From Ramicandelaber brevisporus (taxonomy: Eukaryota > Kickxellomycota > Ramicandelaberales > Ramicandelaberaceae): a stretch of DNA of 20,579 nucleotides. Positions 4,406 to 19,960 of this stretch are shown piece after piece; the first letter of the stretch is position 1; every line of letters begins with the position of its first letter. The notes beneath the pieces are model-generated. The model saw only the letters and a list, made by a program, of their open reading frames with translations. It was not told the DNA's origin and made no database searches. Where the stretch lies: positions 31,186 through 51,764 of the forward strand of contig MU602741.1 in the NCBI GenBank assembly GCA_025201865.1, given 5' to 3'. The translations under genes were made by a program, and so were the position numbers.

Positions 4406-4994
4406 TGTCTATTCCTTTTTTTATTTGTTCAATCTCACCTTAACTGCGATACTAACCTTTTTTGTTACGTCTTTAAACACATTTCGACTTTTTTCTTCTT
4501 TTATAAACCAATTCATTCAACATTGTTCATTTGCCCCTCGTATTGCTGGATATCGTCCCCATTCTGTGACTCCAATCAGCAGTGGCAACTTACACACTCA
4601 TTGCTGCTGCGTCATGCTGTAGGATGTATAGCTGCGCCAGCCTGTTTAAATAGCGATGCGATAGTCTGCCAGTGGAATATTTGACGTGTTGTTCAGTTAT
4701 GTTCGATCTATTAGGATTTCGTTCTGATTGGATGATGCCAAAGCAGCAGCAACAGCAACAGTCCACTCTGGGCTAGCTAATCGGGATGTGAGTCCCCCGG
4801 CAGTTCACAAAATTGACGTGCCGACTCGTACACATATGCACAGCTGAGCTCAGCCTCATCTACCACTCGACTGCTCTGTCTCTCGAACCTCATCACCACC
4901 CACCTTGCAGCCTGTTGTCCCCTCCTCCTTCCTCCCCCTCCTTTTCTCTCTTTCTCTCAGAGTGTGCAAAGACGTCTTGTCTTGTCTGTGTCAG
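4406..4994. other. Intergenic region between two co-directional genes
   Basis: This should hold the 3' UTR of the surface-protein gene (T-rich, 4415-4500) and the promoter and leader of the phosphoribosyltransferase gene. The last 90 bp are a CT-rich tract (about 4917-4960) ending in TCTCTCAG at 4953-4960, which could be a 3' splice site of a leader intron. I could not find a convincing partner 5' site. A frame overlapping the end of the surface-protein gene runs to 4622 but is out of frame with it and has no protein-like features. Confidence 0.45.
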
Positions 4995-5049
4995 ATGACT
5001 TGCCCCGCACCACCTAACGAACGTGCTTCGTCTTCCTCCTCATCTATCG

Positions 5050-5088
<39 letters not shown>

Positions 5089-5945
5089 CCATGCGTCGCA
5101 CGTCACTTTCTGCAACTCGCTTTGTCGACCGTGCCCAATCGGGCGAATTGCTTGCTGCCAAGCTGTCCCATTTTGCTAACCATCCCGATACGGTTGTGCT
5201 GGCAATCTCCACAATGGGTGCCATTGTTGCCGAAGCCGTTGCCCGCAAGCTCAACCTGCCGCTGCGTTCGTTTATAACACGCATGATTTCCGCACCATCG
5301 CAGCCCAATATTTGGATTGGATGCGTCGCCACTACAAGCCATGGCGGATTTCGTGTAGTCTCGCCAGAGATTGTCAAAGGCATGGGTGTGTCTGGCGAAG
5401 CACTGGATCGGGCGTTTGGCGAGATGCTGGATGAGATTAAGACGGACGAGGAGCAGATGCCGGGATTGAGTGTGCCTCCAGAAGAGTGGGGGACGTTGTT
5501 GGCAGATAAGACGGTGATTGTTGTGGACGACGGCATTGCAACCGGTGCATTTATGCGCTATGTAGTGCAAACGCTGGAAAGTAGCCGCCATGTGAGACAT
5601 TTGGTGGACGGAGCTGTGGCCGCAACTCCACAACCTCAGAACTCGGTGCATGTTGATGCTGCTGCTGCTGGAGCGGCGACAAATCGACCTGGAGGGCACA
5701 ATCGTCGTAGCAGTTTGATTGCGTCGGCGGACGGGCAAGTTCCGCTGACTTCGCCGCGTCAATTGATCTTGGCGGTACCAGTCGCCAGTGCCGATGCCAT
5801 TCATCAGTTATCACGCCATGCCAACGAGATTGTTGTGGTCCATGCACCGCCATTTAGCAAGCCAGTCGACCATTGGTTTGAGAGCGGCTCTCAGCTATCC
5901 GAAGATGACAATGCAGCCCTTAATCGTCTCAAGTATGATTATTAA
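4995..5945 (+). CDS. Type I phosphoribosyltransferase-domain protein (bacterial COG1926-like)
   Basis: The protein has 316 residues from ATG 4995. The frame reaches 4905 only through a TTG. A Ser tract and twelve Gln (20-31) precede the domain, and an in-frame ATG at 5091, just before the domain, is an alternative start. The fold reads T-R-F-V-D-R-A-Q-S-G-E-L-L-A (about 40-53), the strand/loop V-V-L-A-I-S-T-M-G-A-I-V-A-E, then P-L-R-S-F-I-T-R-M-I-S-A-P. The PRPP-binding signature V-V-D-D-G-I-A-T-G-A is at 176-185, followed by L-I-L-A-V-P-V-A-S near 257-265 and a C-terminal P-P-F-x-x-P-V-D-H-W-F block. This order matches predicted bacterial phosphoribosyltransferases (FxDR start, VDDGxATGAT loop, AVPVA strand, F-x-x-V-x-x-W-Y end). 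An insert of about 50 low-complexity residues lies between the PRPP loop helix and the AVPVA strand. The substrate base is unknown. The gene is tail-to-tail with the methyltransferase gene, 91 bp apart. Confidence 0.82.
5052..5087 (+). repeat. (CAA)12 polyglutamine tract
   Basis: Twelve CAA codons encode Gln 20-31 of the phosphoribosyltransferase. CAA is used here, whereas the surface-protein tract upstream is pure CAG, so the two arrays arose separately. Confidence 0.9.
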
Positions 5946-6036: not shown

Positions 6037-9000
6037 TTAGGAGAACTTCATGAAGATGAGATAGTATGTGTGCACAATGGGGAATGGCTGGCAGTGTTCA
6101 GGATCAGTCAGAATGCAAGGTTCGTTGACATGAGTAAACGCTGCAAGGTCAATCGCCATGTTGCGGTTCTTCTGATAGCCATCTGGAACTGCAATCACGA
6201 GTTCCTTCAGCCTCAGCCGACTCGATGGAATAGCGTTGTTGATATCCTCACGAACCAGCATACCCATCGGCCAAAGCTTCGACGACGACTGGCGAATATC
6301 CTGAGTGCCAACAATAAGTAAGCCAGATGGTGCAAGTTGCACAAAAGCGGTTGATACGATGCTGACGATGGCATGTTGATATGCTGCAACATCCATTTCA
6401 GTGGACCAGCTGGACCAGCTGAGATGCGGGATGACAACCAGTGATAGTGGCAATGCAGCGCTACTGATGACTGGTTCATTCATGAGGCGGTCATAGTACT
6501 TGATGTCATTCTCATGTTTGCCCAGTTCCGATGCAAATCCAAGAGTAAATAGTGCATGTTCATTACTCCGGATTCGAGTCTGCCGTTTGCGTTCATACTC
6601 TGAATCTGCGTAAGCGTCATAGTTGTTGTCCGGTGTTAGTGACACATCTTTATCTGGACAACTATCAGTCGATAATAATAATGATGACGATGAAATCGAT
6701 GACTCTGTTGACACTGGCTGTAGTTGAATGAGCTCCCAAGCACTGTCATTGCGGCCAAACCGCTCAACCAGCCGAGATATGCACAGACTCTGCAGGGTGT
6801 GACAAGTGTGAGGCTCTGGTCGAAACACCCAAACTGTGCCCATAAACACCGACTGCCGTTCGACAGTGGCACGTGGAATCTGCCGACGCTCACATTGCGT
6901 CTTATAGCGCGCAGTTACTGGCACCATCTCAATAGGAGGCAGATCCATCTGATGGTTAGCTGTGTTGCTTAATCGCAGCGGCTTGCGCAGAGTAAAGATG
7001 AACTCATGTGTAAGCAGCAAGAAGTCATGCTTGACACTCAAGAATGTACCTCTGCCAAATTCGTGATTATCCCTCAGACGCTTTACGATGAGCTCCTCCA
7101 GCTCGAATCCAGCACTGATATACGTGCGAAGCGTCTCGAGTCCAACATCCACATAGAATGTGTTCTTGCGGTTATCGCCAATCCCGAGAGTGAGCCACCG
7201 ACCTGGTTTCAACACACGCCACGACTCCTGGGCAACCTTGGCCATCTCCACCTGGAACTGCGCATGGTCAGGAATACGGCTCAGATCACCATCCATGTTG
7301 GAATACGCAATGCAATCTTTGTATGGCGGATGGGACAGAACGTGGTCAAACGACTCGTCATCGAACAAAGTGGCCATCTTGTGCAAATCTCGCGCATCGC
7401 CTTGAAGAACTACCGACCGATTCTTGGCATTGATGTAACTGTGACGGGGCAGGCCGAATGAGCAGTTCTTTGTTGCAAGAGCAGTTGCAGCGGGGCTGAT
7501 GTCGATCCCAATGCAGAGACGGTTATTGAGGAAACACTCAATGGCATCTGTGCCGCGGCCAAGGAAGTTGGACAAGACACGCTCGTCAGGTAGAGTGTAG
7601 CGCAACAGATTACGACGAACAACCTGAGGAAGCCATGTGCCACGGTAGTCACTGCCACTGTGTGTTGCCCAGCGTGGAGTGTGGTCAGGAATGTCGTAAT
7701 AGGACGAGTCAAACCCAAGCGAGAAGTACTGCGATGGCCGAGGACCAGTTTCTGTGAGGATGAGCATGTCTGAAGGCAACTGTGACTTGGATGATCTAAA
7801 TGGATATGGCGAGTAAGTCGATGCACCGCCACGCTGGTTAAGATCACCTTTGCTATCCATGCTGTCCATCCGCGAATCAGTTACTGAAGCAGCGTTTACA
7901 GACTCATTACCCATTGGTGAAGCGTCTGGGTTGAGCATGAAGCAGTCATCACAAATGCGAACATTGTTGTAGACATATCTCCATTCACTCGAATCTGTCC
8001 GCCAACAATATGCACAGCGAGTACTAACTGTAGAGTAATCTGCTCCTGGAACACTGGCTGGAGAATTTGAGTGAGCACCGCGTTTGTGATGACCCAGTGA
8101 GGACTTGACCACACCAAGCACCTCGGAAATGGCAGATGAATTTGGAATGACAGAGTCACAACCAGTCGTATCAGATGATGCCACAGACTTAGTAAGAGTC
8201 TCTGACGCAGCAAGAACTGCTAACCCACGCTTCATCTTGGATACAACACGGCTGCTGCTGATATTACTACTGATATTGCTTTGATCATCAAAATCCAGTG
8301 GTATCGACCGTGGCTCATTGGACAGTGTATCAGCTAGTGACCACTTTGCAAAAGACAGATATGGATGCTTATGGCCAATGTCATCAAAGGACTCCCTGAA
8401 GCAGCGGACGCACAGATCAAACGACTCAAAGTAGTTTATGCACTCGCGGCATGTAAACCAATACTCACTCTCTGCAGTAGTTTCTGAATGCGGCCGTGAA
8501 GCATCCTTGACTGTAGAGCTGACTATGGATTCAATGCGGGATACTCTGCCTTTGTTCAGATTCACACCACAATGATCGCATGTGTACACATCCACATAGT
8601 TATCATGAGCATCATACTGCAAATTGTGGGTTGGGCACAAGAAGATGGCACCATCAGCAAGCATTTGCAGTGGTCGACCAGTGCATCCAACATGATAAAC
8701 ACGACTACACTTGCCATCACAACAACTGACAGTTGCACCACGAGTCTTGCAAAAGAAGCAAGCTGTATGGCGACCACGAATGAGAGCAATATTGACATTG
8801 TACCAATCACCAGATGGACTCACATAGACTTCGGGAGAAAAGCGAGCACATGCGTCATGAACCCAGAAATTGCGAGAGCTAATGCCGCCAAGCCCAGTCC
8901 GCGGAGCCATGTTCTTCAACACGCCTGAATCCGCTCCACCGTCAGGGAGTGGACTGCCACCCTTGGCTGCAATAATAAGTGCTAAATTGACGGATGAGTT

Positions 9001-11370
9001 GACCAGGAAAGGATACGGCAAGAATGGCCCAAGGCATTCTTCGTCGGACTCTTCACAGAATGCACATCTCTTTGCCACATCCACAGAATACTCTGGCTGA
9101 TCATTCATTGTGGTGCTGCCATTATTATTACCAAGATCAAAGTAATCACGCTCATAAAACTGCACATCGCCCAGTCGGGCCTGTAGAGATGATCTGTTCC
9201 TGCCCAATGTTTGCTTGGATGCCATCTTATGGATACGTGCAATAGGATCGCGTTCCAATAGTTTAAAGTTTGCACTTGACAGAACCAGCTGTGTTGCAAA
9301 CGATGAACGTGGATGTGGATGGTTCTCCGGAAATGCATGAATGTAACAAATGAAACAGAGATTGAACGGTCGAGCACGAGTGTTGTTTGGTGGTTGGTGC
9401 TGTTTGGTTGATGCTGATGCTGATGACGAGGATGGTGATGGTGATGGTGATGGTTCACAGCCTGTACAATAGTAGCGCCTGTGTCGCAAAATCAGCGAGC
9501 ATACTTCACACACTGGCTCATTTGTGGACACTTGACTGCTGCAATCACGAGGCAATCGAGTGTGGAACAAATGTAAGATGCTCTGGTAGAGACTGCCATC
9601 GAGTTCGTGGCATTTGTCATTCTCTAGACTTGGACCATGGCTGGATGCTGCTGGCAAAGCTGGCAAGTCACTCACTTTGTGCTCGAGTTGTTGTGCATGC
9701 TCAATAATCTGCTGCTGCTGTTCACGTGATAGTGTGAGGCGCTTCAATGAGGTGGAGGATGGTTGTAGACGACGAGAGTTGAGAGGCAGCCATTCATATG
9801 TGATAGATGGCGACTGTGGTCGCATTATATCATCAGATGTCTCGATGGGTGGAATGGACACAAGTACACTCACTTCTCGACATCGTACAACTGTGGCCGA
9901 TATCCATTCATCATTAAGCAACTGGAGGCGCACTCCATCACCAGCACAATAAATGAGTCGATATTCACGAATTGTCATGTTTTCATGCTGCTGCTGCGAT
10001 AAAGTAAGCGAATCGGTCTGTTCCTGCTGCTGCTGCTGCTTATGCTGCTGTCGTTGCTGCCGTGTAAAATCAACTGAAGAATTAGCATCCATATACTCAT
10101 ACGAGCTGGATGTTGTACTGACTGCTGCATATGCTCGTCGCTTCTCCACAGCATGCGCTTTGTACTGTGCCAATTCCTGCAATCGTTTAAAGCATGGCAT
10201 GAGTCGGTCACTGTCCATAAACAGCAGAATATCACCACTGCTTGAGCTGTCGCTATCGCTGCTGAATATATTAACGCGTTGCAGTGTCAATACATCATCT
10301 GATCCAATATCCACAATGCGAACCAATGTCCAGCAATCTGCGGGCGAATCGAGCGTCAAGCGTACAATGTCGCCAACACGATACACTATATCCCAGTCTT
10401 TCTTACCGAGCTTCTTAACGACTCCATATTGTTTCGACTTGACACCATGATCATTCAACAACTGTTCCATCATGGAGTTAAGGGCAGTTACCATCGTTTT
10501 CGCATTGGGGAACACCATATCAGATGCAAAACCACACTGTCTGCTGCTTGGTGATTCGGGTAGTGTGGATAGAGATGAGCGGATTGCCTGTTGATGTGCG
10601 CTTGAAGACGACGGCTGGGCAGGTAGCACCTCTCGACCACCGCCACCACCACCATTTGACATGATTAATGGAGATGGCACTGCAGCTTGAGCTGGAGATA
10701 ATGACATTGATACGGACGCGCTCTGTGGAGAAGAGCCTTCTCCTTCGAGTATGCGTTGCTTGCGAGGACGACCTCCGGATTGCTGGCTAGGCGGCTGACT
10801 AGCTACTGTGTGCACTGAGCGAGCTGGTGCTGATTGAAGGTCATCCAAGCCTGATGGTGCTCGCAGCTGTTTAGCTGGAGATGCTGCAGAGAATCGCTGC
10901 TCGTCTACCAAGGTATGCGCGTGATTTCGCACCTGTGGCTGCCGCCGTTGCTGTTGCTGTTGCTGAGCTAGTGGGAGCACTGGTATGACATCTGGCCGTA
11001 GCGACTGTTGCGTTGGTTGATATGTTTTTGTTGTTTGCTGATTTCGAGAAGTTGTCGAGTGACGCGAAAAAGGAACAACATCTGGCTGTGTGAATGCATT
11101 CTGTTGATGATCATCACATCCATCGTCAGCTATCGCATCATTTGGCCGTTTGCGTGGTATCAAGCTCTTCATTACAGCAGCTACCGGTTCAGTTGCAGTT
11201 AGAACAGCTCGAGAAAGTGGAGAAGATGGATGGTGCACCGCTGCTGCTTGGGCTGAGGAAGAGGAAGCGGTGGTTGCTCGTCTTCTCCCTGTGTCAAGTA
11301 AAGGGAAAGATGCGTTCTTTGATGTGAATATCGATGATAACGACGACGACGATGGTAGTGATTGAGGCAT
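6037..11370 (-). CDS. Tudor-like/ZZ/ePHD/GATA-like protein fused to a prokaryotic-type DNA methyltransferase
   Basis: The protein has 1777 residues from ATG 11370. The frame extends 20 codons upstream only to a GTG. Domains in order: disordered N-terminus with an AT-hook-like G-R-P-R-K (about 199); Tudor-like barrels at 330-405 and 472-550; a ZZ-like finger at 618-690 (C-E-V-C...Y-Y-C-T-G-C...L-C-F-I-C...H-P-H); an extended PHD at 769-915 (C-A-F-C, W-V-H-D-A-C-A, then C-F-F-C...C-C-D-G-K-C...Y-H-V-G-C...C-P-T-H); a second ZZ at 931-1005; and a GATA-like CX2CX17CX2C at 1119-1143. The methyltransferase domain spans about 1225-1460, with Y-R-G-T-W-L-P-Q (1242 on), motif I F-L-G-R-G-T-D (1269-1275) followed by I-G-I-D-I, and catalytic motif IV S-H-P-P-Y (1346-1350). 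It then has G-D-L-S, R-V-L-K-P-G-R and L-G-I-G-D. This pattern is known from prokaryotic amino-DNA methylases (N6-adenine or N4-cytosine). A degenerate Rossmann-like region lies at about 1640-1731. The likely role is nuclear chromatin-guided DNA methylation. Activity and target base are inferred. Confidence 0.85.
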   Translation of the reverse strand: MPQSLPSSSSLSSIFTSKNASFPLLDTGRRRATTASSSSAQAAAVHHPSSPLSRAVLTATEPVAAVMKSLIPRKRPNDAIADDGCDDHQQNAFTQPDVVPFSRHSTTSRNQQTTKTYQPTQQSLRPDVIPVLPLAQQQQQQRRQPQVRNHAHTLVDEQRFSAASPAKQLRAPSGLDDLQSAPARSVHTVASQPPSQQSGGRPRKQRILEGEGSSPQSASVSMSLSPAQAAVPSPLIMSNGGGGGGREVLPAQPSSSSAHQQAIRSSLSTLPESPSSRQCGFASDMVFPNAKTMVTALNSMMEQLLNDHGVKSKQYGVVKKLGKKDWDIVYRVGDIVRLTLDSPADCWTLVRIVDIGSDDVLTLQRVNIFSSDSDSSSSGDILLFMDSDRLMPCFKRLQELAQYKAHAVEKRRAYAAVSTTSSSYEYMDANSSVDFTRQQRQQHKQQQQQEQTDSLTLSQQQHENMTIREYRLIYCAGDGVRLQLLNDEWISATVVRCREVSVLVSIPPIETSDDIMRPQSPSITYEWLPLNSRRLQPSSTSLKRLTLSREQQQQIIEHAQQLEHKVSDLPALPAASSHGPSLENDKCHELDGSLYQSILHLFHTRLPRDCSSQVSTNEPVCEVCSLILRHRRYYCTGCEPSPSPSPSSSSASASTKQHQPPNNTRARPFNLCFICYIHAFPENHPHPRSSFATQLVLSSANFKLLERDPIARIHKMASKQTLGRNRSSLQARLGDVQFYERDYFDLGNNNGSTTMNDQPEYSVDVAKRCAFCEESDEECLGPFLPYPFLVNSSVNLALIIAAKGGSPLPDGGADSGVLKNMAPRTGLGGISSRNFWVHDACARFSPEVYVSPSGDWYNVNIALIRGRHTACFFCKTRGATVSCCDGKCSRVYHVGCTGRPLQMLADGAIFLCPTHNLQYDAHDNYVDVYTCDHCGVNLNKGRVSRIESIVSSTVKDASRPHSETTAESEYWFTCRECINYFESFDLCVRCFRESFDDIGHKHPYLSFAKWSLADTLSNEPRSIPLDFDDQSNISSNISSSRVVSKMKRGLAVLAASETLTKSVASSDTTGCDSVIPNSSAISEVLGVVKSSLGHHKRGAHSNSPASVPGADYSTVSTRCAYCWRTDSSEWRYVYNNVRICDDCFMLNPDASPMGNESVNAASVTDSRMDSMDSKGDLNQRGGASTYSPYPFRSSKSQLPSDMLILTETGPRPSQYFSLGFDSSYYDIPDHTPRWATHSGSDYRGTWLPQVVRRNLLRYTLPDERVLSNFLGRGTDAIECFLNNRLCIGIDISPAATALATKNCSFGLPRHSYINAKNRSVVLQGDARDLHKMATLFDDESFDHVLSHPPYKDCIAYSNMDGDLSRIPDHAQFQVEMAKVAQESWRVLKPGRWLTLGIGDNRKNTFYVDVGLETLRTYISAGFELEELIVKRLRDNHEFGRGTFLSVKHDFLLLTHEFIFTLRKPLRLSNTANHQMDLPPIEMVPVTARYKTQCERRQIPRATVERQSVFMGTVWVFRPEPHTCHTLQSLCISRLVERFGRNDSAWELIQLQPVSTESSISSSSLLLSTDSCPDKDVSLTPDNNYDAYADSEYERKRQTRIRSNEHALFTLGFASELGKHENDIKYYDRLMNEPVISSAALPLSLVVIPHLSWSSWSTEMDVAAYQHAIVSIVSTAFVQLAPSGLLIVGTQDIRQSSSKLWPMGMLVREDINNAIPSSRLRLKELVIAVPDGYQKNRNMAIDLAAFTHVNEPCILTDPEHCQPFPIVHTYYLIFMKFS

Positions 11371-11378
11371 AGTAGATA

Positions 11379-11443
11379 CTTTTGTTAGAAATGTGATGAA
11401 ATGGTGACTGAACGAGAGTGAAGGTGGCACATTTTCAACGTAC
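11379..11443 (-). other. Possible 5' UTR intron of the methyltransferase-fusion gene
   Basis: On the minus strand a good 5' splice site (AG|GTACGT) begins at 11443, and a CTAAC branch-like word followed by AAAAG ends at 11379, just before the chosen ATG at 11370. The 65-nt length suits fungal introns. The branch-to-acceptor distance is very short, so this is tentative. If it is spliced, the GTG-led extension of the frame is untranslated. Confidence 0.3.
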
Positions 11444-11635
11444 CTATTTCAAATACTGGCGGTACAGCTTGTTTCAGCAGTTTGTTTGATTGATGTTATA
11501 ATAACGTCATATTTGAGCACTGCATCCGAGGTCGACGCTAATGCAACAGAGCCAATTTGATAGAATGAGTGTTCAAGTGAAGAAAAAAAAGCAAAGAGTA
11601 AAGAGTAAAGAGTAAAAATAAAAATAAAACAAAAA

Positions 11636-11665
11636 GCTAGAAATGGCTAGAAATGGCTAGAAAAG
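11636..11665. repeat. Three 10-bp tandem repeats (GCTAGAAATG)
   Basis: Two exact copies and one copy with a changed end lie back to back between the WC-2-like stop and the fusion-gene promoter. No known element was recognised. Confidence 0.8.
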
Positions 11666-11741
11666 GCGATGAGGCAGTCGATGATGGAGAGCGAGAGAGT
11701 GTGACAGAAGTTACATGGTCGAATTGACAATTAATTACGAG

Positions 11742-13613
11742 TTAGAAGTCTTCATAGGAGCGGTCATCTGATGGCAGTTGAAGGCTTTGAACTGGAGGTG
11801 GTAGTCTTGGTTGCAAATGTGGCCGAGTCTGCTCATGTGTTACTACTGCTGTAGTTTGATGCGGAAGTGGCAGTGATGACTGCTGGAGTTGAGACTGTGA
11901 CTGAGATTGTTTCTGATTTTTAGCATTGCCATTGCCAGCCTTCTTTGGAGCTGGCACTCTTGTAAGGTCAGGAGCTTGATCGCCCGTTGATTTCAACACT
12001 TTTGCATAGCGCAAGCCACATGCATTGCACAGTGTTTTGGGACCGGCAGGACCTTTGCGCCATTCGGGCGACTGAGTTGTTCCACATTCATGGCAGAGAC
12101 TGGATTCGGCTGGCTTGCGAACTCTGCGGCGCTTTGGTGCGGCTTTGGAGTCCTGATACACAGCTGTGGCGTCAATTGGGGAGCCAGGTGGATGGACGGT
12201 TGACGGACTAGTTACCATGGACTGCTGTTGAGTTGTCTTTAATGTAAATTTGCGTGAGTTTGATTGAGTTGGAGTTGTGATTGTATTTGGACTAGTTGGA
12301 ATGCCATAAGTTGCTATTGGCCTCGAGGTAGATGCAGCGGCTGCTGTATCGACTGATAGCGGGTTGTGACTTGGTTGTTTAGCGACTCTGGAGGGAATTG
12401 GTATTGGCAGTCTCCCTGACTGTTCATGTTCACGTTCATTGGATGTATTTGCAACAGTCGTAGCAGTGGTAGTATTAGTATTAGCAGTAGTAGCGATAGT
12501 ATGAATGGCGATAGCAGTTGGTATACTATTTGACTGAGCAATGGATGGAGATGAGCTGGCTGGGGACGATGCAGTCAAAGCTGGACCGATTAAAGCAATC
12601 AATTCGTCCTGAGTTCCACCCATTGCTAGAAATTCTTTTCGCAACATTTCATGTTCAAGATGCAGAGCTGCCAACTCATTAATACAGCATGAAATGCTAT
12701 TTGTATACTGTTGAAACGTTAAAACAAAGTTAATCTGTCTTTCTTCTTCTTTATTATCTTCTTCAATTTTACCATTGCTGTTGTTATTATCAATGCTATT
12801 ACTATTTGACATTCCATCAAACTGTTCATCAAACAAACCATAGACAGCTCTACCATGAACATATTGCATTTCCCATCCATCCGCTGATTGAGCTTGTTTA
12901 GTTCTCATTCTCAATACAATATCCACTACACTTACTTCATCATCGTTACCATTATCATCATCACCAATTACACGCGCTCCGCATAATTCAGATGCATTTG
13001 CTGGTCGCTCTGCTGCTTGGTTCATTGCATCTTCCAAATGTTCAACATCTTCTGGATGTACAAGCTGCATCAACTCTATTCCATTCAATGAATCTGCATT
13101 ATGTGTCTCTACATCACCGCCACTATTATCGACATTGCTATTAGCATTGTGAATTCCTGTGCTGAATACTGCGTTTGCTGCTCCTGTTGCATTCAGAATA
13201 ACTCCAGCCTTGTTCAATAGAAGCACAGGATCTCCACCATCGCTGATGAGCCGAACCAGTAAAGCTGCGTGTTTACTGGCAAATTCACTAGCAATATCCA
13301 TCCGTTGAAACGTTGAGCGAGCAACTTCTACACTGGCGCTTGACGACAAAGCTGATGATGCCTGCTCAAGTGACAGCGAACGGGTGATGTCTGGGGACTG
13401 ATGCATAAATAAAAAAGAAAAGAAAAGAAAAGAAAGAAAAAGTAGATGAAAAAGGAAAAGTATCAAAAATTGTAATACTATACTGTGCACACAGACAGAC
13501 TCACAGATACACACAGACACATACAGAGAGAGAGAGAAGAAAAAGAAATAAAGAAAAAGAAAAATATGAACTGGTGGAAGAACATTGATCACCTTCTCCT
13601 TGACATTTGACAT
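11742..13613 (-). CDS. wc-2: WC-2-like PAS/GATA zinc-finger transcription factor
   Basis: The range runs from ATG 13613 to TAA 11742 and includes a probable intron (13592-13398). Without it the first 70 residues would be an implausible Phe/Leu-rich stretch read from a pyrimidine tract. Splicing gives 558 residues starting M-S-N-V-K-E-K then S-P-D-I-T-R-S. Alternatives are ATG 13406 (554 residues) or ATG 13301. A PAS fold follows at about 45-235 of the spliced product, with D-P-V-L-L-L-N-K-A-G-V-I-L-N, V-H-P-E-D-V-E-H-L and strands through I-N-F-V-L-T-F. Two low-complexity inserts, one Asp/Asn-rich, interrupt it. Near 438-463 is a GATA finger C-H-E-C...S-P-E-W-R-K-G-P-A-G-P-K-T-L-C-N-A-C, spacing CX2CX18CX2C, as in White Collar proteins, preceded by basic R-R-R-V-R-K. 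In fungi WC-2 partners the flavin photoreceptor WC-1 and binds GATC-type light-response elements. No LOV-type flavin-binding Cys motif is visible, so it is WC-2-like rather than WC-1-like. It shares a 235-bp divergent promoter with the tyrosinase gene. Confidence 0.85.
   Translation of the reverse strand: MSNVKEKVINVLPPVHIFLFLYFFFFSLSLYVSVCICESVCVHSIVLQFLILFLFHLLFLSFLFFSFLFMHQSPDITRSLSLEQASSALSSSASVEVARSTFQRMDIASEFASKHAALLVRLISDGGDPVLLLNKAGVILNATGAANAVFSTGIHNANSNVDNSGGDVETHNADSLNGIELMQLVHPEDVEHLEDAMNQAAERPANASELCGARVIGDDDNGNDDEVSVVDIVLRMRTKQAQSADGWEMQYVHGRAVYGLFDEQFDGMSNSNSIDNNNSNGKIEEDNKEEERQINFVLTFQQYTNSISCCINELAALHLEHEMLRKEFLAMGGTQDELIALIGPALTASSPASSSPSIAQSNSIPTAIAIHTIATTANTNTTTATTVANTSNEREHEQSGRLPIPIPSRVAKQPSHNPLSVDTAAAASTSRPIATYGIPTSPNTITTPTQSNSRKFTLKTTQQQSMVTSPSTVHPPGSPIDATAVYQDSKAAPKRRRVRKPAESSLCHECGTTQSPEWRKGPAGPKTLCNACGLRYAKVLKSTGDQAPDLTRVPAPKKAGNGNAKNQKQSQSQSQLQQSSLPLPHQTTAVVTHEQTRPHLQPRLPPPVQSLQLPSDDRSYEDF
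13398..13592 (-). other. Probable intron near the 5' end of the WC-2-like gene
   Basis: The minus-strand sequence is rich in T and CT repeats and, if translated, gives runs of Phe, Leu and Ser. It can be removed in phase 0 from AAG|GTGATC (5' site, 13592) to CATCAG| (3' site, 13398), with a long pyrimidine tract before the acceptor. The 195-nt length is a multiple of three and has no in-frame stop, so the frame looks continuous. A stronger internal donor, GTGAGT, starts at 13504 and could serve a 5' UTR splice form. The exact donor is uncertain. Confidence 0.55.
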
Positions 13614-13848: not shown

Positions 13849-15456
13849 ATGTATTACCGACAGCCTATCACTCTGTGCACATTGCTGTGCCTAGTTCTAC
13901 TGCATTACTGTTCACATGTATTTAGCCAGTGCGTGAATCCGTTTGTTCGCAAAGAAGTCCGTCAACTTAACCTGGATGAATTCAATGCGCTCATCAATGC
14001 ATATCGCCGCTTCAAAGAGAACTCGGGACCGCAGTCGCTTGATGGATTCACTCACATGCACATTGAGAACGCCTGGCATGTTCATGGAACACCTTTATTC
14101 TTGGCTTGGCATCGCCGCTATATCCGTGCATTTGAAGAGGCATTGCGTATTTATGATCCATCAGTCTCTTTACCTTACTGGGACTGGGGAGTTGATGCAG
14201 CAGCCCCAGATATGAGCATAGTGTTTTCAGATGGATACTTTGGTGGAAATGGCAGAGCCGGAGATGGATGTATAGTCAATGGCCCATTCTCAGGATGGAT
14301 GATGAATATTCCTTATTATCACTGTCTACAGCGTCAATTCAATTTAGGCGATAAAATCAGTCCATTTTGGCCAACTGAGGCTATAATTCACATGCAGCAG
14401 ACTGTAGCTTCCCAATCTGAGTTATCAAGGACTATTGAAGGTGGATGCCATGGTGCAGTTCATCTGGGAATTGGTGGTGAGATGGCATCAATGAACGCAC
14501 CCAATGACATATTCTTTTTCATGCATCATGCCACTATTGATAAAATCTGGGCTGAATGGCAGGCTATGGATTTAACTAACAGATTGTACATGTACGATGG
14601 CATTGACAACACTGGACGGCCCGTGTCTGTGTACGACCCTTTGCCTGGCTTCACGGAGCGTGTAGTTGACGTGATGGATTTAAGAAGTCCTCTCAATTGT
14701 TACTACTATGCACCAACTACTGTGCAGGCGAGAACTAAATCCGCACTGTCCAGTTTGCCATCTGATTTCCAGCAACACTGGTTTGGTAGATCTCTTCATC
14801 TAAAGGACTCGATGAGCATATTTAATATTAGTCATGGTATTAGTCGTGGCAGTAGTAATAGTAATAACAACAACAATGGTAATAAAACAATAGTGGATGA
14901 CATGGGTAGAGCAACGCGTGGTATACTCGCTAACAAAGCATCACCATCAACAGTCGCAGGCAAAGCACTATTCCGAGCAGCATCTTCAAACAAAGTGACG
15001 ATATCTCAAGCATCACCTTCATCACCTGCTGCACCTCAGCCGTCCGCTACTTCATCAAACTCAGCATCGTCAGCATCTCCAGTCTCACAATCCCAGTCGC
15101 AGTCATCAAGCTCATCACAATCTGGCCCAACTCCAACTCCAACTCCAACTCCAACAACGCCGCCAGGTTCGCTCACTCCTGGCCGCTCAAACCCACACGA
15201 AGAAGATGAGAATGATAATACACTGCCAGCTGGTCGACAAATGAGATATGGCGCTCTGCTCAGTAATTTAACCGATCTCGAAAATGGCATTGGATCAACT
15301 GGCTCAAAGGCGCGATATAGACCAGTTCTGCGTGGAAAGGACTTTAACCAACAGCAATCAAATCAACAACTGGCATCGCCAGAATCGCAGACAGCGCCAT
15401 CGAGTATAACACCAACGTCAATCCATCCACATCCACTTTTATCCTCTGACCAGCAG

Positions 15457-15489
<33 letters not shown>

Positions 15490-15738
15490 AAATCGCCGCA
15501 TCTATCCAAGTCATCCAAGTTGATTGCACCTCAAGAATTACCATTGTGGTGGATTAAAATGAATAATTTGGATCCAGATCAAGTCAAAAAGACTCATCAG
15601 AAGTTACTTGACTTCATTGGTGCACTCAACAAGTTTGAACAATACTTGTCTCCAAATGCAATAGCACAATATGCAGCTGACGAACTAAAGAAGCTTATTT
15701 TGGTTGGTCGAAGTCACGAAGTCATCAAATCACCTTGA
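13849..15738 (+). CDS. Secreted tyrosinase (type 3 copper polyphenol oxidase)
   Basis: The protein has 629 residues. The start is ATG 13849, followed by a signal peptide (C-T-L-L-C-L-V-L-L-H-Y-C core, cleavage near F-S-Q-C at 25-28). The copper A site is F-T-H69-M-H71-I...W-H77-V-H79-G-T-P-L-F-L-A-W-H88-R-R-Y, with the classic nine-residue gap between H79 and H88. The copper B site is C200-H201-G-A-V-H205-L-G-I-G-G, then N-D-I-F-F-F-M-H226-H227-A-T-I-D-K-I-W-A-E-W. All six copper ligands can be placed. Tyrosinases oxidise mono- and diphenols to quinones, the route to melanin. The catalytic core ends near residue 295. A long low-complexity linker follows (Ser, Gln, repeated P-T, 13 Gln at 535-547), then a C-terminal block of about 75 residues beginning P-Q-E-L-P-L-W-W-I-K-M-N-N-L. 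In other tyrosinases a C-terminal part shields the active site until it is cut off. That role here is inference. The head-to-head WC-2-like gene suggests light control. Confidence 0.95.
15451..15489 (+). repeat. Mixed CAG/CAA polyglutamine tract (13 codons)
   Basis: This encodes Gln 535-547 of the tyrosinase, in the linker before the C-terminal block. The mixed codons suggest an older tract than the pure arrays elsewhere in the window. Confidence 0.9.
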
Positions 15739-17932: not shown

Positions 17933-19960
17933 ATGTCGACCGCGAAGATCAAGACAGAGCCAACAACAACAGCAGCAACAGCAGCAACAGTCGACAGAGT
18001 GCAAGTCAAGCTCGAGCCGAGTCTCTCAACAGGTGATATCAAACTCGAACAGCACACTTCAGACATTGACACCAAAGTCGAGCCTGACTCGGAAGACTAC
18101 ATCAAATCAGAGAGCGACGATGAAGATGACAGTGACAATGACCAGAACCAGTTCACAATAACTCCCAAGAATCAACGACAGTTCATCTGCAAATACTCTG
18201 GATGCGGTCGTAGTTACAATTCGGCCGGTAATCTGGGAGTGCACCAACACGAGCACAGACTCCAAACCGAGCTCACTACACATGGAAAGACTTACACTCT
18301 GGCTCGGCAATCGTTAGGTGATCGATGGACGTGTCCTATTCCGGATTGTACCTCAACATACAAGACTGTTGATTCTTTATGTGATCATATACGAAGATAT
18401 CATAATAATACTGTGGAACAACATCAGCAATCCCCATCCCATCTAACTCGGAACAAACTGTATTTCATTAATGTGGATGACTTTTATGTGAACGCAGTCC
18501 GCTGTGGCTACTATACTACTATTGGAGTATTTATTTGTTACGAATGCAGGCTGGTGCCAGAATGTCTGCTAACTCATTTTCAACAGAAACATGGATATGA
18601 CGAAAAGGCTATTGACAACTCTGTTCTGCCAGAGAGTGCAGTAAATGCAAATACTGATCCTAACATTAATCAGCACACCGGCAATCCACATCTCGCAGCA
18701 GCAATTGGCCAGCCATATCAACAACATCATCAGAATATTGTACAAGGCTGGCTGTGTATTACATCCGATTGTCGTTATTGTAGCTACACAGCTCTGAATA
18801 AAACAGATCACAAAAGAAAGGTTCATCAAAGTGAACAGATGGCAACTGTTTCAGCACTCGTACTTCGATTGCTTTATCGGAAAACACAAGCTTCGTGCTT
18901 TCTCATTACTCGCATAGATCAGGCAAGTGGTGCTGTCACAGCCAGTGGTAATAGAGTGAACCAGTATAGACTCGACTACGGTCACAATGGATTGAACGCT
19001 CAAGATGAGAATGGAGATGATGTCAATCAGAATGAGACCACAGAGGAATCCAATAAGAAACGACAATGGGTGTGTGAATATGAGGATTGCAGGAGATTCT
19101 TCAACTCGGCTGCTCACCTTAGCGAGCATCGACGTGAACACAAAATGGAAGTTGTGATTAATGTGCGTGGTACGGCCTTCAATCTCACTCGTCAGTCCTT
19201 AGATGATCGATGGGCATGTCCAGTTCCAGACTGCGAAACAACATGGAAAACAGTTGATACTACTCATAACCATATTCAATATTTTCATGATACATTGTTA
19301 AAACATAAACGTGCTAGTATGGAGGACGGCGACAACAGTCTGCAGCAGCCAACTATCAAAAAGAGACAACTTAATATTCGTTATTTAAAGGTGGATGATT
19401 TCTACGTTAGTGGTACTAGATGTGGCTATCATACTACGACTGGATTATTCATTTGTCACGAATGTAAGCTGGTACCAGAATGTCTGCTGACTCATTTACA
19501 ACAGGAACATGCATATGATGAGAGATCAATTGATATTGCATTTCTACCGGAGAGTGCTAGAATAACTGGAAGCGATCCAAACATTAATCAACACACCAGC
19601 AACTCAGATCTCGCAGCAGCAATTCGTGGTCCAAATCAACTACAGCATCCGGACGTTGTCCAAGGTTGGTCGTGTGCTACAACTGATTGTGGTTTTTGTT
19701 ATCCCACTAAAACGTCTATGTATCAGCATCAATGTAGAGAACATAAAGGCGAACAAAAGTTGATAGCTCCGGCTCTCGTATTGAGATTACTTTATGGGAA
19801 AACACAGTCTTCGTACTTTCTCATTACTCGACTGCATACTACCACCATTAGCAGTACCACGCCAAGTAACTCAGTGAGTCAGCATAATAGCGAGTGTGAT
19901 TACGATGATGGCGATGAGTTAGTGCTGAGTGATTATAGTGATGAAGATGATATTCATTAG
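17933..19960 (+). CDS. Duplicated C2H2/OrsD-like zinc-finger protein with a SUMO-motif N-terminus
   Basis: The protein has 675 residues from ATG 17933. Residues 1-70 hold five K-x-E motifs with lysines at 7, 26, 37, 48 and 58, four of them ΨKxE. An acidic stretch follows. The rest is two copies of one module (about 84-327 and 378-633). Each copy has two C2H2 fingers (C86/C91/H104/H108 and C134/C139/H152/H157; C381/C386/H399/H403 and C429/C434/H447/H452). Next is a block V-D-D-F-Y-V...R-C-G-Y-x-T-T...F-I-C-x-E-C-x-L-V-P-E-C-L-L-T-H, with C-x2-C-x9-H-x4-H (C202 and C508). A finger after V-Q-G-W (C275/C280/H293/H298; C581/C586/H599/H604) and a P/S-A-L-V-L-R-L-L-Y...F-L-I-T-R end close it. The ICxEC...H-x4-H plus later G-W/F-x-C finger resembles the OrsD-type (DUF3505) double finger of fungal proteins. 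The C-terminus is D-E-L-V-L-S-D-Y-S-D-E-D-D. It is probably a nuclear DNA-binding regulator. Targets are unknown, and no transposase or helicase domain follows the fingers. Confidence 0.8.
   Translation: MSTAKIKTEPTTTAATAATVDRVQVKLEPSLSTGDIKLEQHTSDIDTKVEPDSEDYIKSESDDEDDSDNDQNQFTITPKNQRQFICKYSGCGRSYNSAGNLGVHQHEHRLQTELTTHGKTYTLARQSLGDRWTCPIPDCTSTYKTVDSLCDHIRRYHNNTVEQHQQSPSHLTRNKLYFINVDDFYVNAVRCGYYTTIGVFICYECRLVPECLLTHFQQKHGYDEKAIDNSVLPESAVNANTDPNINQHTGNPHLAAAIGQPYQQHHQNIVQGWLCITSDCRYCSYTALNKTDHKRKVHQSEQMATVSALVLRLLYRKTQASCFLITRIDQASGAVTASGNRVNQYRLDYGHNGLNAQDENGDDVNQNETTEESNKKRQWVCEYEDCRRFFNSAAHLSEHRREHKMEVVINVRGTAFNLTRQSLDDRWACPVPDCETTWKTVDTTHNHIQYFHDTLLKHKRASMEDGDNSLQQPTIKKRQLNIRYLKVDDFYVSGTRCGYHTTTGLFICHECKLVPECLLTHLQQEHAYDERSIDIAFLPESARITGSDPNINQHTSNSDLAAAIRGPNQLQHPDVVQGWSCATTDCGFCYPTKTSMYQHQCREHKGEQKLIAPALVLRLLYGKTQSSYFLITRLHTTTISSTTPSNSVSQHNSECDYDDGDELVLSDYSDEDDIH
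18182..19831 (+). repeat. Internal gene duplication: two copies of a four-finger module
   Basis: Copy 1 is about 18182-18913 and copy 2 about 19064-19831. All zinc ligands are kept in both. Over the OrsD-like block about two thirds of 95 residues match by eye, including L-V-P-E-C-L-L-T-H and D-P-N-I-N-Q-H-T. DNA-level similarity is lower, so the duplication is not recent. Confidence 0.85.

Follow-up and report, generated by a model that had tools for sequence, protein, structure and literature searches.

Few enzymes that methylate the exocyclic amino groups of DNA bases are known in eukaryotes, among them the MT-A70 enzymes of the MTA1c type, MetB and the bdelloid rotifer enzyme N4CMT (PMC11258239, PMC13297926, PMC8885841). 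A stretch of 20,579 nucleotides from the fungus Ramicandelaber brevisporus (assembly GCA_025201865.1, contig MU602741.1, positions 31,186 to 51,764; hereafter the window) raises the question of whether early-diverging fungi possess a further writer of this kind. It carries a long minus-strand frame in which an earlier note, made from the sequence, had recognised a prokaryotic-type amino-methyltransferase fused to chromatin reader modules. We read this frame, with a probability of about 0.7, as the gene for a reader-writer protein of early-diverging fungi, in which a prokaryote-derived two-domain DNA amino-methylase would be aimed at chromatin. A methylase that is conserved across many of these fungi, keeps its catalytic residues and is joined to readers would be a candidate second system for reading histones and writing DNA, and it bears on whether early-diverging fungi use N4-methylcytosine (4mC) or a further pathway for N6-methyladenine (6mA).

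The reading frame, its methylase domains and its readers

The gene consists of a single open reading frame (ORF) that starts with either GTG (11430) or ATG (11370) and ends with a stop codon at 6037, giving a protein of 1797 or 1777 residues; residue numbers refer throughout to the 1797-residue frame (Table 1). The motifs named in the earlier note were all found on the minus strand in the order given there, running from 7566 down to 7168: in addition to motifs I and IV, the D of IGIDI is encoded at 7501-7503, GDLS at 7279-7290, RVLKPG at 7201-7218 and LGIGDNR at 7168-7188. The assignment to the prokaryotic-type amino-methyltransferases holds as well, since PF01555 (N6_N4_Mtase) matches residues 1362-1535 at 29.7 bits, over its curated cut-off of 26.7, and the domain has prokaryotic relatives of 38-45% identity. 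PF01555 was also matched in 23 of 24 fungal members of the family chosen for a full-length Pfam scan (E<=0.01). The domain departs from this family in two respects. Motif I precedes motif IV, unlike in the PF01555 profile, where IV stands before I, and in prokaryotic relatives it is the front part of the protein that matches the end of the profile. The catalytic consensus of PF01555 is [DNS]PP[YFW]; HPPY is found instead in all 123 fungal proteins gathered by our two protein searches and in all 94 sequences taken as prokaryotic. The latter are the 103 proteins P0139-P0241, many of them without an organism name, less nine fungal-like or fragmentary ones set aside by hand (P0140, P0144, P0145, P0147, P0149, P0161, P0165, P0192 and P0234). 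As the earlier note had maintained, the protein is not MT-A70-like: it gives no Pfam match to PF05063 and reads SHPPY, not DPPW, and MT-A70 identity was rejected on these grounds. Identity with MetB was likewise rejected, the window protein having no Pfam match to PF02384 (N6_Mtase), the MetB family.

The conserved unit extends to the C-terminus at residue 1797, beyond what the earlier note had marked, and its last part is a second methylase domain lacking both motif I and PPY. Domain 2 is a degenerate copy of domain 1 that arose by internal duplication: profile-profile comparison of the two bacterial domains gave a probability of 97.3% (E 1.7e-11), while eight column-shuffled controls gave E 0.021 or worse and a reversed one 0.25. 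The structure model of residues 1225-1797 has a mean predicted local distance difference test score (pLDDT) of 82 and a predicted template modelling score (pTM) of 0.87; for domain 2, modelled with a pLDDT of 84, the best, though weak, fold matches are class I methylases.

The reader modules claimed to share this frame fared unequally. The extended PHD (ePHD) is secure, its PF13832 score lying over the cut-off of 27 (Pfam span 852-919) and the region matching the KMT2D (MLL-type) chain in the PDB with E 4.7e-13. The ZZ and GATA-like modules and the Tudor-like one gave no Pfam match in the window protein. The ZZ-like and GATA-like modules are nevertheless visible as conserved positions, since in the alignment of the 24 fungal proteins the following columns are invariant or nearly so: CxxC 641/644, 655/658 and 692/695 with HxH 704/706 in ZZ-like module 1; CxxC 951/954, 994/997 and 1007/1010 with HxH 1020/1022 in module 2; and the cysteines of CxxC-x17-CxxC at 1139-1163. 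In place of a Tudor match, an MBT domain was detected in 18 of the 24 fungal proteins, all of which have the ePHD; a MORC2 chromo-like model was matched in 12 and Agenet in ten of them (GATA and ZZ counts in Table 1).

At E<=1e-3, a search with residues 1225-1797 returned 152 relatives. The organisms named for the 120 that were listed all belong to what we take to be the early-diverging fungi: Mucoromycota, Mortierella and its kin, Glomeromycotina, kin of Kickxella and of the Entomophthorales, Dimargaris, Piptocephalis, and the chytrids Spizellomyces and Geranomyces. A species-specific capture was thus rejected, as the family spans many fungal genera. Conservation exceeds 95% in every column of FLGRGTDAIE, LSHPPYK, GDLS and TLGIGDNR across 119 aligned proteins, and [IM]GDxR is kept in 122 of the 123 fungal proteins. 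A search aimed at other eukaryotes brought up four fungal proteins only; it scored the 8000 candidates sharing most words and does not imply absence elsewhere.

Table 1. Features of the reader-methylase gene in the window
Feature	Residues	Position	Strand	Basis
Whole coding frame, readers and two-domain methylase		6037..11370	-	ATG at 11370, open to 11430
ZZ-like zinc module 1 (CxxC pairs and HxH)	641-711	9298..9510	-	Cys/His columns conserved, 24 fungal proteins
Extended PHD (ePHD/zf-HC5HC2H)	785-935	8626..9078	-	PF13832 37.3 bits, PF13771 32.7 bits
ZZ-like zinc module 2	951-1027	8350..8580	-	Conserved Cys/His columns; PF00569 in 2 of 24 (E<=0.01)
GATA-like CxxC-x17-CxxC finger	1139-1163	7942..8016	-	Conserved columns; PF00320 in 3 of 24 (E<=0.01)
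Catalytic amino-methyltransferase domain (domain 1)	1225-1486	6973..7758	-	PF01555; prokaryotic relatives 38-45% identical
Motif I FLGRGTD (S-adenosyl-l-methionine, SAM, site)		7546..7566	-	Column conservation
Motif IV SHPPY (catalytic loop)		7321..7335	-	HPPY conserved in fungi and prokaryotes
C-terminal degenerate second methylase copy (domain 2)	1523-1797	6040..6864	-	Profile-profile match to domain 1

Prokaryotic relatives and their partner genes

Searching with a profile built on ten fungal methylase domains gave 551 proteins; among the 120 listed, the named bacterial and archaeal matches have E values of about 1e-66 to 1e-53 at 38-45% identity, and some bear labels such as 'DNA methyltransferase', 'DNA modification methylase' or 'TRM11 family'. 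They occur in two forms, one of about 250-300 residues that is the catalytic domain alone, and one of about 460 residues that also has domain 2 and aligns over both domains to the last residues of the fungal protein. The fungal C-terminus, TVWxF...RFG...G.L.VG.QD.R...LKELV..VP...HxYYL.F.K, resembles the bacterial TTVWxFPE...RY...VIQTQDIR...LKEIIVVT...HxYLLVYEK, and bacterial and fungal domain 2 match each other in hhalign at 98.5% (E 2.3e-15).

The tree called for in the earlier note, built from 87 methylase domains and unrooted, separates prokaryotes from eukaryotes by one branch with support 100 (starred), 'eukaryotes' meaning the fungi and the metagenome sequences that group with them. In a second unrooted tree, made after manual removal of seven sequences that were long or partial (EUKMETA_P0137, P0130, P0132, P0134, P0147, L082 and the Massospora protein P0102), the eukaryotes, the two-domain prokaryotes and the single-domain prokaryotes each form one group, and the eukaryotes join the two-domain form with a support of 74 (unstarred), which is not strong; the shared domain 2 agrees with this grouping. 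The nearest relatives outside the eukaryotic clade are thus prokaryotic. The gene most likely passed from a prokaryote to a fungus with the methylase taken over whole, a direction suggested by the occurrence of the family in many prokaryotic phyla and in one eukaryotic group in what was searched. The presence of both chytrid and terrestrial fungal branches suggests that the gene has been inherited mostly vertically from an early ancestor of the fungi. We also note two short metagenome proteins, P0161 (456 residues) and P0192 (439 residues), that combine an ePHD with the methylase and group with, yet apart from, the fungi.

Scanning genome contigs with the fungal profile gave no relative, and a scan with a prokaryotic profile followed; among phages and plasmids, all matches were distant or incomplete, and the best of them, in a Fusobacterium record of 2.1 Mb, reaches 55.7% across the methylase domain. 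Of the 83 loci given by the best 80 of 559 stretches in the prokaryotic genome scan with the long form and by three matches in viral contigs, 79 yielded the methylase frame, and their neighbouring genes were clustered. At least one of seven partner families lies within two ORFs of the methylase gene in 64 of these 79 loci, exactly one in 56; among the 15 loci without a partner, four have no downstream ORF in the available sequence. Within three ORFs the recurrent partners are a family mostly of 402-459 residues (19 loci, 11 named phyla), DpnII-like proteins (17 loci, eight phyla), proteins of about 185 residues (17 loci, nine phyla) and of about 180-195 residues (12 loci, seven phyla). The remaining three of the seven families are smaller, with members of about 170-190 (five), 356-384 (three) and about 275 residues (three). 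The partner starts inside the methylase stop codon in 7 of the 17 loci of the 185-residue family and in 7 of the 12 of the 180-195-residue family, and all 14, picked for a gap of -3, show an ATGA or GTGA overlap.

A restriction endonuclease family adjoins the methylase gene in 17 of 79 loci: PF04556 is matched in 16 of the 18 proteins of the DpnII cluster (best E 1.5e-85), the other two matching the D12 methylase family. Among the 100 neighbour proteins scanned (of 114 listed, from 30 loci), DpnII is the commonest Pfam family (5 of 100) and PADLOC type II restriction enzyme models hit 5 of 100, the other defence models shown hitting one to three proteins each. At ten of the 17 loci with DpnII the available sequence contains no [DNS]PP[YFW] frame, at five the only such frame belongs to a cluster reading as inositol monophosphatase, and two (L078 and L082) have other methylases with DPPY. 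A second amino-methylase-like gene is seen near the HPPY gene at L010, L078, L081 and L082, one cluster being common to L010, L081 and L082.

For the non-DpnII partners scanned singly, no Pfam match exceeded the cut-off; in one set of ten partner proteins the only Pfam matches lay below cut-off, to NucS_N (13.2 bits) and a glycosyl hydrolase model (14.5 bits). Ten partner proteins compared with NCBIfam, DpnII-like ones included, matched no model. Profiles of three partner families found nothing in the PDB at E<=0.1, nor did one DpnII-like protein at E<=0.01. These families may be unnamed restriction endonucleases. A methylase that stays constant while its partners, a restriction endonuclease among them, are exchanged has the look of a restriction-modification module, and the ancestor of the fungal enzyme was very probably a DNA methylase of that type. 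On the prokaryotic side this points to a family of two-domain HPPY methylases, among whose several unnamed partners there may be new restriction endonucleases. DpnII enzymes cut GATC; if they do so here, the target of the accompanying methylase would have to be the A (giving 6mA) or the C (giving 4mC) of that site.

Function of the fungal protein

On these grounds the fungal protein is probably an active DNA amino-methylase. In the mechanism that we propose, its readers (the ePHD, both ZZ-like modules, the GATA-like finger and, in most of the scanned relatives, MBT) would bring the enzyme to nucleosomes of a given histone state, and guidance by histone marks is plausible from the domain composition. 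Domain 1 would then methylate the exocyclic amino group of adenine or cytosine in nearby DNA, and domain 2 might act as a built-in non-catalytic partner that helps to hold DNA, comparable to Mta9 and METTL14 beside their catalytic partners. The earlier note had proposed a captured prokaryotic methylase turned into a histone-guided writer of 6mA or 4mC; its prokaryotic kinship and its intact motifs stand and are extended here, and the guided writing is kept as a proposal. More tentatively, the protein could add to MTA1c and MetB a third system of amino-group DNA methylation, made of a single chain with its own pseudo-methylase, older than the split between chytrids and terrestrial fungi, histone-guided, perhaps limited to certain stages, and placing 6mA or 4mC in a short palindrome such as GATC that its restriction-modification ancestor once guarded.

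Two observations weigh against a chromatin-directed DNA methylase. The closest solved fold to the catalytic domain is that of Trm11, and the protein is neither MTA1 nor MetB, the writers of 6mA in Mucor, which speaks against a role in bulk 6mA. In that fungus, MetB (PF02384) makes asymmetric and the Mta1 complex symmetric 6mA, and deletion of metB lowers 6mA by 70-75% (PMC11258239). This assignment, made under the conditions studied, would be compatible with a DNA methylase whose activity is confined to a short phase (spores, mating or replication) or to mobile elements, leaving little trace in the methylomes examined; the marks of N4CMT, its nearest counterpart in function, lie on transposons and tandem repeats (PMC8885841). 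We regard such restricted activity, which is a special case of the reader-writer proposed here, as a real possibility, though less likely than not.

The fold result raises the alternative that RNA is the substrate, the enzyme being akin in function to the Trm11/TrmN methylases or modifying nascent transcripts at chromatin; 'DNA methylase' would then be a misnomer. Trm11 enzymes carry a THUMP RNA-binding domain, and archaeal Trm11, a tRNA m2G10 methylase, has it together with a DPPY motif. THUMP gave no Pfam match in the window protein, in nine relatives or in the 24 fungal proteins; the window protein does not match TIGR01177 at E<=1, and seven prokaryotic relatives score 33-61 bits against a cut-off of 316.55, so that membership of the Trm11 family was rejected on family scores although Trm11 is the nearest fold. 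In profile comparison the bacterial domain lies nearest to DNA methylases. The bacterial profile matches, in the PDB, the putative modification methylase 2zie (7e-18), M.MboII (6e-10), CcrM (2e-9), DpnA (2e-8) and an N4-cytosine methylase (6e-8), with Trm11 behind at 1.7e-5, the best stretches, 2zie excepted, covering only about 50 residues round motif I; and five prokaryotic relatives score 88-115 bits with PF01555 versus 26.5-37.5 with PF01170. Among the 50 Foldseek and 50 VIA fold matches shown for domain 1 no DNA methylase is named, lists that cannot exclude one; a collinear fold search would penalise permuted DNA methylases and may miss them. With the DpnII-type and other exchangeable partners that adjoin the prokaryotic gene, an RNA target is unlikely.

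Quite improbable is a non-catalytic chromatin adaptor that keeps the methylase fold for binding only: domain 2 is already a degenerate copy of such a kind and the motif I loop differs (GRGT in 118 of 123 fungal proteins versus GxGTT in 92 of the 94 taken as prokaryotic), but a binding-only module would not be expected to retain the catalytic loop without exception, and HPPY, [IM]GDxR and the SAM-site residues are conserved in the fungi as described above.

Genomic surroundings and comparison with known systems

The C-terminal 573 residues (1225-1797) match the R. brevisporus record GQ42DRAFT_177452 at 100%, and their region is present in one copy in the genome. Contamination was rejected in view of this match, of one long frame with eukaryotic readers and of relatives in many genera. 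In window 11004-13301 (minus strand), record GQ42DRAFT_177452 (2141 residues) begins in an upstream PAS/GATA-type frame and skips about 845 bases to enter the methylase frame at its residue 143. As PF00320 is annotated only for this model and P0103 among the 120 relatives listed of 152, the deposited model probably joins what are two separate genes. The adjoining minus-strand frame (11742-13613) has a classic GATA finger and a PAS-like front and resembles, by eye, a light regulator of the white-collar-2 type. Also by eye, plus-strand frames in the window resemble a phosphoribosyltransferase (VIVVDDGIATG) with a poly-glutamine stretch (4905-5945), a tyrosinase (HGTPLFLAWHRRYIRAFEEALR, further on HHATIDKIWAEWQ; 13849-15738) and a protein of two long, similar halves with a C2H2-type zinc-finger unit (17933-19960).

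Elsewhere in the R. brevisporus genome, one MT-A70 frame was found (C127:28094-28630), which reads DPPF, not DPPW; the solved structures that it matches best are 'Methyltransferase MT, putative' (8xyl_B), followed by MTA9. The scan showed no catalytic MTA1, although a gene split by introns could have been missed. There is one C5-methylase frame, DNMT2-like by eye. No PF02384 match was obtained in a scan that can miss intron-split genes, and the PF01555 scan, with nothing at E<=1e-3, was insensitive because the methylase gene itself went unmatched.

Architectures of this sort may be among those listed in the comparative-genomics paper of Iyer, Zhang and Aravind (BioEssays, 2016). A 2026 review of fungal DNA methylation gives MTA1c and MetB as the 6mA writers of early-diverging fungi, and neither 4mC nor PF01555 occurs in it (PMC13297926). 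The only literature found to join 6mA, fungi and PF01555 was the bdelloid N4CMT paper (PMC8885841). The protein described here may provide early-diverging fungi with a further way of marking their DNA, through an uncharacterised family.

Its closest known counterparts are the prokaryotic two-domain HPPY methylases (P0139, P0143, P0164, P0171; loci L001-L080), which have both domains and all motifs and are 29-36% identical to the fungal protein over the two domains and 38-45% over the methylase domain. They differ from it in being without chromatin readers, in lying, in many cases, beside DpnII or unnamed partners, and in motif I (GxGTT, not GRGT). MetB is, similarly, a bacterial-type amino-methylase retained by early-diverging fungi, but it belongs to PF02384 and has a target recognition domain, and no reader is named for it in the parts of the source on which we draw (PMC11258239). 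MTA1c (Mta1/Mta9/P1) and METTL3-METTL14 also pair a catalytic with a non-catalytic methylase copy; these are MT-A70 proteins with DPPW on two chains, whereas the fungal protein is PF01555-related, has HPPY and unites both copies in one chain. The bdelloid N4CMT, finally, likewise joins an amino-methylase of bacterial origin (N6_N4_Mtase), acquired by a eukaryote, to a reader of histone marks; it is a permuted, beta-type methylase with a C-terminal chromodomain and demonstrated 4mC activity (PMC8885841), whereas in the fungal protein, a putative DNA methylase, motif I precedes motif IV, a degenerate domain is added and the ePHD, ZZ-like, GATA-like and MBT modules lie in the N-terminal part.
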